Shown here piece by piece: positions 4,383 to 39,164 of a stretch of 64,000 nucleotides of DNA. A program made the position numbers and the translations under genes. Position 1 is the stretch's first letter; every line of letters begins with the position of its first letter. The notes beneath the pieces are model-generated. The model was not told the DNA's origin, did no database searches, and saw nothing but the letters and a program-made list of their open reading frames with translations. The stretch is taken from positions 124,001 through 188,000 of the forward strand of contig NZ_JANZKZ010000002.1 in assembly GCF_025770725.1 (NCBI RefSeq). The letters are read 5' to 3'. This DNA is from Sulfurospirillum oryzae (GTDB lineage Bacteria > Campylobacterota > Campylobacteria > Campylobacterales > Sulfurospirillaceae).

Positions 4383-4715
4383 ATGAAAACGCTAAATGAT
4401 TTTTATCAACTCAAAGATGCGGAAGATTATTTCCATTTTTTTGGTATCGAGTATGACAAACATATTGTCGCAGTCAAGCGTTTTCATATTATGAGAGAGT
4501 ATGGAGCATTGGTTAAAAAAGGGTTTGAAAATTTTAATGGCGATGAAAAGTACCTCATGGACTTTTTGAAGTTTGCTCTGATGCGCGTCTATATGGACTA
4601 CAAACATGGGCACGCTCCAAGTGCGGCTGAGGTTTGGGGCATGATCGAAGACGGAAAAGCCAAAGGGTGTTTGGCATGTGCGATCTCATCTGAAGGAGGA
4701 AACTGTGCTTGCTAG
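4383..4715 (+). CDS. nifW: Nitrogenase-stabilising protein NifW
   Basis: 110-aa protein of the NifW family, associated with protection or maturation of the MoFe protein, especially under oxygen. The family pattern of a short N-terminal helix followed by AEDYFHFFGIEYD and a FHIMREYG segment is clear. Two in-frame ATGs exist at 4377 and 4383; the AAGGA at 4371-4375 is correctly spaced only for 4383. The Cys-rich end (CLACAISSEGGNCAC) is unusual for NifW. The last 11 bases overlap nifZ. Confidence 0.82.
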   Translation: MKTLNDFYQLKDAEDYFHFFGIEYDKHIVAVKRFHIMREYGALVKKGFENFNGDEKYLMDFLKFALMRVYMDYKHGHAPSAAEVWGMIEDGKAKGCLACAISSEGGNCAC

Positions 4716-5073
4716 TGAAGAAGTTGTTTTGCACAACACGGTGATGGCAAAACTTTCAGGTAAAGATGAAGAGAGTGCCAAGTTTTTTCTCGGGCAAAAA
4801 GTGAAACTTTTGGAAGATGTCAAGAACGATGGGACTTATCCGTATCTTGGGATTGGAGAGGTGATGATTAAAAAAGGCTCCATTGGGTACATCCGCACCA
4901 TTGGAGAATTTTTACAAGTCATTCGTGTCTATGAAGTTCATTTTTTAGATGCCGAAGCGGTCATCGAAGTGATCGGGTGTAGGGAACATGAGCTTGAAGC
5001 GATGGAACCTTACCGTGACCTTGAAGCCGAAGAGACAGAATGGATGATGAATCATTATAAAACTAAGTCGTAA
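4705..5073 (+). CDS. nifZ: NifZ, P-cluster maturation protein
   Basis: 122-aa NifZ family protein, linked in other diazotrophs to formation of the second P-cluster of NifDK. The family signature is seen as GQKVKLLEDVKNDGTYPYLGI, then KKGSIGYIRTIGEFLQ and GCREHELE. An ATG-started frame begins at 4678, but AAGGAGG at 4693-4699 sits five bases before a GTG at 4705, so the GTG start is chosen. This gives an 11-base overlap with nifW and suggests translational coupling. Confidence 0.83.
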   Translation: MLASEEVVLHNTVMAKLSGKDEESAKFFLGQKVKLLEDVKNDGTYPYLGIGEVMIKKGSIGYIRTIGEFLQVIRVYEVHFLDAEAVIEVIGCREHELEAMEPYRDLEAEETEWMMNHYKTKS

Positions 5074-5077
5074 ATTC

Positions 5078-5093
5078 TGCCTTGTAAAAGGCA
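5078..5093 (+). terminator. Hairpin after nifZ
   Basis: TGCCTT, loop GTAA, AAGGCA: a perfect 6-bp stem just after the nifZ stop. There is no U-run, so it is more likely an mRNA-stabilising or partial-termination hairpin within the operon than a strong terminator. A related intergenic repeat follows directly. Confidence 0.45.
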
Positions 5094-5147
5094 AGCTTTA
5101 GCGCCCTAGTGGCTAACGTAGGCTAGTAAGCTTTGCTTAATAGCCGT
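5094..5147 (-). repeat. Partial copy of the nif intergenic repeat
   Basis: Read on the minus strand, this segment contains GCAAAGCTTACTAGCCTACG followed by TTAGCCACT. It aligns with the two 80-bp repeats at 37131-37210 and 37607-37686 through their AAAGCAAAGCT...CTACGYTA core. It is shorter and more diverged than those two. It lies between nifZ and the ferredoxin-like gene, so this repeat family appears confined here to nif intergenic regions. Confidence 0.55.
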
Positions 5148-5200
5148 TATAAAAATAAAAAATAAGTAGTAAAAAATCTTAGTAAGGAGGGGAAAAAGTC

Positions 5201-5539
5201 ATGGCAAAAGTAATCTTTATGCATTTTGATAAAGAAAAAGATGGTATCTATGATGCCAAAATAGGCGAGCCTGTTGTGCGTCTAGCAAAAGAGAAGGGGA
5301 TTCCTATCACTTTTGATCCTAAAGATCATTCGACATGTTTGGTCAGCGTTGAGAATATCAGCGATGAAGAGCCAACAAGCTACATGGAAGACGAAGAGCT
5401 TGATGAGCTTGTAAAACTCGGTGCCATTACGCAACAAGATGCAGATATCTGCCAACAGTTTACCGTTAGTCCTAAAGTTCGCATCGCTTCGATGATGATG
5501 ATTAAGGGCGATGTTTTGATTAAACCATTTAAGAAGTAA
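5201..5539 (+). CDS. Ferredoxin-like protein that has lost its 2Fe-2S ligands
   Basis: 112-aa protein that aligns along its length with the intact plant-type 2Fe-2S ferredoxin encoded directly downstream. The ligand loop GCRDGQCGTC of the neighbour corresponds to FDPKDHSTC here, leaving one cysteine. The fourth ligand region LACQM corresponds to IASMM. At most one of four ligands is therefore kept and no cluster is expected. The reading frame is intact and a strong AAGGAGG ribosome site is present, so it is probably a working gene and not a relic. It has a longer, acidic insertion (residues about 50-80). A scaffold or regulatory role near the ferredoxin is only a guess. Confidence 0.6.
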   Translation: MAKVIFMHFDKEKDGIYDAKIGEPVVRLAKEKGIPITFDPKDHSTCLVSVENISDEEPTSYMEDEELDELVKLGAITQQDADICQQFTVSPKVRIASMMMIKGDVLIKPFKK

Positions 5540-36086: not shown

Positions 36087-37120
<1,034 letters not shown>

Positions 37121-37130
37121 GCCATTGATG

Positions 37131-37210
37131 ACACGCTTTTAAAGCAAAGCTCTAAAAGCTACGCTAACGCTGAGTTTCCCTCGGCGTGAAGCCCACGCAC
37201 CTTTGGTGCT
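37131..37210 (+). repeat. 80-bp nif intergenic repeat, copy A
   Basis: Runs from ACACGCTTTTAAAGCAAAGC to CACGCACCTTTGGTGCT. It matches the reverse complement of copy B (37607-37686) over the full 80 bases with scattered mismatches and little length change. It contains a small hairpin GCACC-TTT-GGTGC at its end. Copies A and B bracket the gene at 37239 and could pair in the nifHDK transcript. Confidence 0.85.
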
Positions 37211-37238
37211 TAAAAAATAAAAATGTAAGGAGCATATT

Positions 37239-37598
37239 ATGTTTATTTGCGGATACCACTTCCCAGCATCTTTGGGAAATAAAATTAGTCATGAACAAGT
37301 TATCGAAAGAGTTACAGCAGAAGTTGGCGATCTTTCAGATGTTAGTTACGCAATTCTTATTAGCGAAAATCGTGATGGCATCAAACAAGAAGACCTAAAA
37401 GTTGAAAAAGGATCATTCCTTTTTACCGCATTGGCTGATTACTATAAAAAATCAGACATTGAGGGTGAATACAAAATGATTTATTACACCAACAAGTATC
37501 AAATGAGTGAGATTTCAAAAGCAGTCGATGGTGGCGCAACAGCAGATGTTTGCAAAAAGCTTGATGATATGCTTCTTTACAGAGTTAAAGTCGCTTAA
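37239..37598 (+). CDS. Unrecognised protein between nifH and nifD
   Basis: 119-aa soluble protein, mixed alpha/beta, with three cysteines or fewer and no recognised motif. It is not a P-II (NifI) protein: the T-loop and family signatures are missing. It is not NifT, NifW or CowN in appearance. AAGGAG at 37226-37231 with a seven-base gap supports the ATG. It lies inside the nifHDK operon and is bracketed by the 80-bp inverted repeats. Position implies a nitrogenase-related role (regulation or protection), but nothing in the sequence shows which. It keeps an intact frame and normal composition. Confidence 0.75.
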   Translation: MFICGYHFPASLGNKISHEQVIERVTAEVGDLSDVSYAILISENRDGIKQEDLKVEKGSFLFTALADYYKKSDIEGEYKMIYYTNKYQMSEISKAVDGGATADVCKKLDDMLLYRVKVA

Positions 37599-37606
37599 TC
37601 AGACAT

Positions 37607-37686
37607 AGCACCAAGGGTGCGTGGGCACTCTGCCAAAGAGAGCCCAGTGATAACGTAGTCTTTGGAGCTTTGCTCTAAAGGCGTGT
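37607..37686 (-). repeat. 80-bp nif intergenic repeat, copy B (inverted)
   Basis: Inverted partner of copy A. It carries internal hairpins: GCACC-AA-GGGTGC at 37609-37620 and GGGC-ACTCT...AGAGA-GCCC over 37623-37645, plus GAGC-TTT-GCTC near 37666. It ends 23 bases before the nifD start codon. Confidence 0.85.
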
Positions 37687-37709
37687 TAAAAAATGAAAAG
37701 GAAAAGAGC

Positions 37710-39164
37710 ATGACAACAGAAACACTACTAAGCCAACAAGAAGCCGCCATCGCGGAAGTTCTTGCTGCTTACCCTGAAAAGGCGCAAAAAAGTAGAGCAA
37801 AACACCTTGGCGTTGATATGCCTGAGGGTGTTAAAGGTGCTTGTGATGCAACCAAAAGCAACAAACAAACCGTTCCAGGTGTCATGTCTCAAAGAGGTTG
37901 TGCCTACGCTGGAAGTAAGGGTGTTGTTTGGGGCCCTGTGAAAGATATGATTCATATCTCTCACGGACCAGTTGGTTGTGGTCAATATAGCCGTGCAGGT
38001 AGAAGAAACTATTACATCGGAACAACTGGCGTTGATACGTATGTAACGATGAACTTCACAACAGATTACAATGAAAAAGACATCGTTTTCGGTGGCGATA
38101 AAAAACTTAAAGCCGCACTCGCAGAGATTGACGGACTTTTCCCATTGAACAATGGTATCTCCGTACAAAGTGAGTGTCCTATCGGTTTGATTGGTGATGA
38201 TATTCAAGCGGTAGCCAAAGCGTATAAAAAAGAGTCAGGTAAGCCTACCGTTGCGGTTTCGTGTGAAGGTTTTCGTGGTGTTTCCCAAAGTCTTGGTCAC
38301 CACATTGCGAACGATATGCTTCGCGATGAGGTTTTACCTGATAACTCTTATAAAAAAGACTTTGAGTCAACTCCGTATGATGTTGCGATCATTGGCGACT
38401 ATAACATCGGAGGAGATGCTTGGAGTTCAAGAATTTTACTTGAAGAGATGGGGCTTCGTGTTATTGCTCAATGGAGTGGCGATGCGACTTATAAAGAGTT
38501 AACCATCGCTCCAAAAGCGAAAATCAACCTTCTTCACTGCTACCGAAGTATGAACTATGTTGTTCGTCACATGGAGCAAGAATTTGGTGTGCCTTGGATG
38601 GAATATAACTTCTTTGGACCAAGCAAAACAACAGAGAGTTTACGCAAAATTGCGGCATTCTTTGATGAGAGTATTCAAGCTAAAACTGAAGCGGTTATCG
38701 CAAAATACACAGCTATGACAGACGCTGTCATTGCTAAATACCGTCCAAAATTGGAAGGCAAAACCGTTATGTTGTACGTCGGCGGATTACGTCCTCGTCA
38801 CGTTATCGGTGCTTACGAAGATTTGGGAATGAAGATTATTGGAACAGGTTATGAGTTCGGACATGGTGATGACTACAAACGTACCAAAGATGAGCTTAAT
38901 GGTACAACCTTGATCTATGACGATACCAACGAGTACGAATTAGAGCAATTTGTCAAAAGACTCAAACCTGATCTTGTAGCCAGCGGTGTTAAAGAGAAGT
39001 ACGTTTTCCAAAAAATGGGATTACCATTTAGACAAATGCACTCTTGGGATTATAGTGGTCCGTATCATGGATACGATGCCTTTGCAATTTTTGCAAAAGA
39101 CATGGATTTGGCGTTGAACTCCCCAGTATGGGCTCACACCAAAGCACCATGGGAATCTAACTAA
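37710..39164 (+). CDS. nifD: Nitrogenase MoFe protein alpha chain NifD
   Basis: 484-aa alpha subunit carrying FeMo-cofactor. P-cluster cysteines are seen in [16 protein letters not shown] and [11 protein letters not shown]. The FeMo-co ligands are seen as the Cys in [11 protein letters not shown] and the His in [17 protein letters not shown]. The [17 protein letters not shown] block is typical of Mo nitrogenase, and no anfG/vnfG gene lies between D and K. A frame opens at 37662 within repeat B, but AAAAGGAAAAG before the ATG at 37710 and homology decide the start. It follows repeat B and precedes nifK by ten bases. Confidence 0.97.

Follow-up and report, generated by a model that had tools for sequence, protein, structure and literature searches.

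Inverted repeats around a nif-linked gene between nifH and nifD of Sulfurospirillum oryzae are probably copies of a genus-wide MITE-like palindromic element

In the nif operon of Sulfurospirillum oryzae, two repeats in opposite orientation bracket a gene for a 119-aa protein located between nifH and nifD. This locus raises the question of whether the repeats form a purpose-built pair or have another origin. A preliminary description proposed that they could pair in the nifHDK mRNA and isolate the gene on a stem, thereby changing the stability or translation of nifH versus nifDK. We analysed the window, i.e., the whole stretch of DNA of 64,000 nt that contains the locus, together with related genomes. 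A repeat search placed the 80-nt arms at 37131-37210 (copy A) and 37607-37686 (copy B), exactly as first described, and showed them to be inverted, 75% complementary and separated by a gap of 396 nt. The smaller hairpins reported within both copies were also borne out, with + strand folding z-scores of -4.6 for A and -4.3 for B and energies well below those of shuffled sequences. Both copies match the covariance model of the repeat family (R1) over its full length (102.3 bits for A and 98.4 bits for B, both being part of the training alignment of the model), thus indicating that their similarity is not due to chance. The features of the locus are as follows.

36209-37120, + strand: nifH (Pfam PF00142, E 9e-120)
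37129-37214, + strand: copy A, core of the type 1 element, just 3′ of the nifH stop (R1 match; dispersed matches)
37135-37159, + strand: hairpin H2 of copy A, an 11-pair stem with a GC-AAA-GC tip (fold; covariation across 21 copies)
37171-37195, + strand: hairpin H3 of copy A, loop TCGGC (fold; covariation)
37197-37209, + strand: hairpin H4 of copy A, GCACC-TTT-GGTGC (fold; covariation)
37239-37598, + strand: the 119-aa ORF (orf), a nif-linked Campylobacterota protein, outside the element (ORF list; homologue search)
37603-37688, - strand: copy B, inverted core of the same element, located between the orf stop and the nifD ribosome-binding site (R1 match)
37608-37620, - strand: hairpin H4 of copy B (fold)
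37622-37647, - strand: hairpin H3 of copy B (fold)
37658-37682, - strand: hairpin H2 of copy B (fold)
37710-39164, + strand: nifD (Pfam PF00148, E 5e-96)

The named relatives of the nif locus belong to Sulfurospirillum, e.g., S. diekertiae. Upstream of nifH, the sequence GGAACACTATATGC at 36154-36167 was read by eye as a putative sigma-54-like promoter (GG-N10-GC). The bracketed gene itself represents a conserved unannotated nif-linked family: a protein search found nifH upstream and nifD downstream of it in 26 of 26 loci (L124-L149), and the protein is encoded in 13 of the 150 genomes sampled across the phylum. It starts with MFICGYHFPA and bears two invariant cysteines, C4 and C105. No Pfam or NCBIfam family matched the protein, its relatives gave weak scattered matches to unrelated families, and the comparison with PDB sequences yielded no match of note. 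The AlphaFold2 model is confident (pLDDT 91), and its best structural match, the N-terminal domains of DapD (Z 5.4), is too weak to assign a function.

The notion of A and B as a private pair did not survive a search of the 2.63-Mb genome in which they lie, where copy A has 43 blastn-level matches and the covariance model finds 56 at E<=0.001, including 35 that score more than 60 bits. The model also matched in all 24 Sulfurospirillum genomes searched (6-80 matches per genome), while the other genera of the family gave 0 to 7 matches each, so that the repeat is rare outside the genus. An Rfam 15 search at the element returned no match at E<=1, which rejects a known Rfam RNA family as its identity, and the family is apparently undescribed in the open-access literature searched.

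When a hand-written structure consisting of three hairpins and a short two-pair helix was imposed on 21 aligned copies, 89.6% of the cells were paired, and 12 of the 28 base pairs showed compensatory changes on both sides. The covariation score was 0.253 compared to 0.125 in shuffles (none of 500 reached 0.253) and 0.03-0.09 in slid control structures, an excess that may partly reflect subfamily inheritance, since the structure was drawn from the same sequences and the copies are related. Nearly all the copies are intergenic, and they are found in every orientation class. The antisense orientation within operons prevails in the S. oryzae genome (17 vs. 5, counted by eye), but the bias is weak given 15 vs. 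11 elsewhere. The counts of G-U vs. A-C pairs favour neither strand clearly (30 vs. 36 cells, with 19 of the 30 coming from one column).

Fuller copies of about 125-155 bp comprise the core with one hairpin on its left (AGAGTTCTTGCAGAACTCT) and another on its right (CTTCTTGCAAAATGAGTTTTGCAAGAAG), and end in TA-flanked inverted termini, TA-GA(G/C)TTCTTGC ... GCAAGAAGTC-TA. The terminal motif AGA(G/C)TTCTTGCA(A/G)AA occurs 33 times vs. once for the reversed control, in many cases beside cores. A and B represent the core only, both missing the outer hairpins and the element termini. Copy A also has no T-run behind its last hairpin; TTAAAAAA stands where most copies have one, a replacement that would avoid termination within the operon. 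A second subfamily, type 2, has the H2 hairpin and a CTACG motif in common with type 1, differs in the later hairpins and is also dispersed. The window contains one such copy in addition to A and B:

5085-5151, - strand: a third, type-2-like copy (R1 27.9 bits; type-2 DNA match G000:C2:129090-129162, equal to window 5090-5162)

This type 2 copy (5085-5162) lies about 12 nt past the stop of a 131-aa ORF (4678-5073) and upstream of an ORF at 5201. Elsewhere in the genome (L218, G000:C2:847906-848069), we observed a near-perfect palindrome of about 160 bp with a fold of -82.9 kcal/mol, whose terminal inverted sequence, TTAGACTTCTTGCA, is as in the element. Its interior is different, making it a second MITE type, which may have its mover in common with the element.

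Traces of mobility are seen in two sister species, G017 and G018, whose flanking sequences are about 89-96% identical. In the stretches examined, they have in common just 2 of about 11 strong syntenic type 1 copies, and several clean filled and empty sites distinguish them, with the flanks continuous in the empty genome. At the same site, one of them may hold type 1 and the other type 2, and one type-1/type-2 chimera was found. The junctions are AT-rich, and a target-site duplication of TA, AATT or a longer sequence is possible, with no one length fitting all. The family shows the marks of a MITE of the ERIC/Correia-like kind: the copies are short (less than about 200 bp), non-coding, numerous and dispersed, the fuller ones (A and B themselves being without ends) have terminal inverted repeats, and filled and empty sites occur in relatives, both between G017 and G018 and in the nif spacers. 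As for a mover, no DDE_3 gene exceeded the cut-off in the genus, this being the one DDE transposase family searched, and an IS630-type transposase was therefore rejected as a partner. Among the listed terminal motifs in the S. oryzae genome, no two that face inward span a stretch long enough for a gene.

The nif spacers themselves vary across the genus. Of the 19 Sulfurospirillum genomes that have orf, 12 carry a hairpin element in the nifH-orf spacer, as either of two forms with opposite orientations: type 1 at the position and in the orientation of A in S. oryzae (G000), G024 and G026, and type 2 in reverse orientation in nine species. An element occupies the B position in S. oryzae, G012 and G030, and A and B occur together in S. 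oryzae alone among the 19 species. In six congeners (G018, G019, G020, G021, G025 and G028), both spacers are empty and short (27-34 nt for nifH-orf, 32-39 nt for orf-nifD) with the gene order kept. The nifH-orf-nifD tree places the three species with copy A in different clades, a distribution implying that the element was lost more than once, was transferred or was inserted more than once. A tree of the copies, built on too few columns, groups the A of G024 with that of G026 and leaves the A of S. oryzae unplaced; the tree of type 2 copies is weak. The nifH-orf spacer of G013 (L032) contains an extra hairpin sequence nested within its type 2 element. In two loci of other genera (L148 and L144), the orf-nifD spacer bears unrelated long palindromic inserts, e.g., GTAGGGTGCAATTTATTGCACC..., thus indicating that this spacer harbours different palindromic elements by genus.

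Taken together, the dispersed copies, compensatory changes, inverted termini, filled and empty sites, intergenic placement and empty nif spacers in six congeners, along with the finding that A and B match no better than other pairs (see below) and the published effects of MITE and ERIC sequences on mRNA (PMC10969869, PMC2229807), make it probable that A and B each represent a palindromic element of MITE-like, non-autonomous type that is found throughout the genus, the two lying inverted relative to each other in the spacers that flank orf. Most likely, they landed there as insertions and do not constitute a purpose-built switch, although one of the two spacers seems to favour the retention of such hairpins. 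The element would owe its spread to a transposase supplied in trans, with A and B arriving by separate insertions. Each transcribed copy would fold locally while the polymerase passes, and its effect, if any, would be that of an ordinary hairpin block at a 3′ end or of an entry site for nucleases. This might mildly raise the nifH mRNA relative to nifDK, as proposed for ERIC and Correia/NEMIS, the long A-B stem being presumably an incidental result of the inverted placement of the two copies. Against this reading speak the absence of a matching transposase among those searched for, the lack of a consistently definable target-site duplication and that of outer hairpins in A and B, and the presence of A in three distant clades would be odd for random insertion.

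The likeness to known small repeats extends to several families. ERIC/IRU sequences are similar in size, palindromic, intergenic, located between co-directional genes and flanked by TA, with a plausible effect on mRNA (PMC2229807), but they form one long stem, whereas the Sulfurospirillum element has separate hairpins; they belong to a different phylum, and no sequence relation was seen. Correia/NEMIS elements of Neisseria are likewise small, have inverted termini and dozens of copies, and their transcripts contain hairpins on which RNase III could act (PMC10969869). Their termini differ from those of the Sulfurospirillum element. YPAL/RU-2 of Yersinia was also recognised by comparing filled with empty sites, and its junctions vary (PMC2229807), but, unlike the Sulfurospirillum element, YPAL has no TA ends, and the sequences are unrelated.

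The occupancy of the nifH-orf spacer in 12 of the 19 species makes it plausible that local hairpins would stabilise the nifH mRNA. A nifH-adjacent hairpin is also found in the nifH1 mRNA of Anabaena variabilis, where the stem-loop is proposed to set transcript stability; it lies at a 5′ processing site and is not described as a dispersed repeat (PMC4284476). One may go further and suppose that selection has acted on the nifH-orf spacer to carry an array of hairpins, whether type 1 in forward or type 2 in reverse orientation, which shields the nifH mRNA at its 3′ end, a proposal we regard as possible, if on the whole doubtful. It is compatible with the MITE-like origin, which would provide the raw material, and concerns the retention of the element. 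Two subfamilies in opposite orientations are found at this site, and the type 2 end hairpin is preserved there by paired changes (GCCAA/TTGGC to GCCGA/TCGGC, GCC/GGC to ACC/GGT), while type 1 copies elsewhere turn over rapidly, as seen in G017 and G018; structured nifH-orf spacers occur in some other genera as well. However, seven species have short spacers without the element, and persistence may be a property of type 2 in general, since type 2 copies are common to relatives at non-nif sites too. An extended version, in which a modular hairpin family with types 1 and 2 swapping sites and forming chimeras has been recruited several times to the 3′ end of nifH to serve as an exchangeable mRNA stabiliser, the inverted second copy making a double-strand processing stem in one species, seems improbable; if true, it would mean that a mobile repeat supplies the control of the nitrogenase expression ratio.

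The stem of the preliminary description can now be weighed. Thermodynamically, the proposed pairing holds: the minimum-energy fold of a 590-nt stretch contains 69 A-B pairs at -200.5 kcal/mol, compared to -145.1 kcal/mol when the pair span is limited to 100 nt. The A-B duplex alone reaches -104 kcal/mol vs. -31 and -36 kcal/mol for the separate local folds, and it is also favoured by the global fold in the nifH..nifD context. Such an equilibrium fold ignores co-transcriptional local folding and the ribosomes on orf, and in the cell the local hairpins would form first, with 119 translated codons intervening. Moreover, 89% of all aligned copy pairs are more alike than A and B (71% identity by alignment), and an equally or more stable duplex is expected for 70% of inverted copy pairs. 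The pairing potential thus needs no selection on the pair, since neither its identity nor its duplex stability is exceptional within the family. The restriction of the two copies together to one species out of 19 also speaks against a dedicated pair. The preliminary description had itself named the absence of the repeats from close relatives with the same gene order as evidence against its stem, and this is what the six congeners with empty spacers show; others carry one element alone, or a different subfamily, in the nif spacers.

These data render a dedicated A-B stem unlikely. Its specific form, in which a duplex of about 69 bp loops out orf and is cut by RNase III to separate a stable nifH mRNA from nifDK, appears very improbable. 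Such a device would resemble the processing stems of rRNA operons, but the inverted pair around the looped-out gene is not conserved. Another very improbable reading takes the copies for REP sequences that owe their movement to a RAYT (TnpA_REP) Y1 transposase: they are indeed dispersed, palindromic and intergenic, the S. oryzae genome has one RAYT-like Y1_Tnp gene and Y1_Tnp matches occur in 39 of 44 family genomes, but the RAYT flanks hold another, unrelated inverted repeat (GGGGTCAGGGCTAAACTTTTAACTTTT; GGGGTCAGGGCTAAAC...), with no R1 match near the gene in the four genomes checked (L055-L058). In S. oryzae (L055, G000:C1:539000-545000), the single RAYT-like gene is located at 2177-2935 between copies of GGGGTCAGGGCTAAACTTTTAACTTTT in inverted orientation and thus forms a REP-like system of its own.

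The feature is thus real and of an ordinary kind, since the nif operon contains two members of a repeat family that is new but MITE/ERIC-like. This family is spread through the intergenic spacers of Sulfurospirillum and is apparently unreported in the open-access literature. The inverted pair as a chance meeting of two mobile-type repeats cautions against reading such pairs as designed. If the occupancy of the nifH-orf spacer is selected, the genus would offer a clean series of natural spacer states, from empty through type 1 or type 2 to the inverted pair, in which to test how hairpins in the spacer set the nifH:nifDK ratio.
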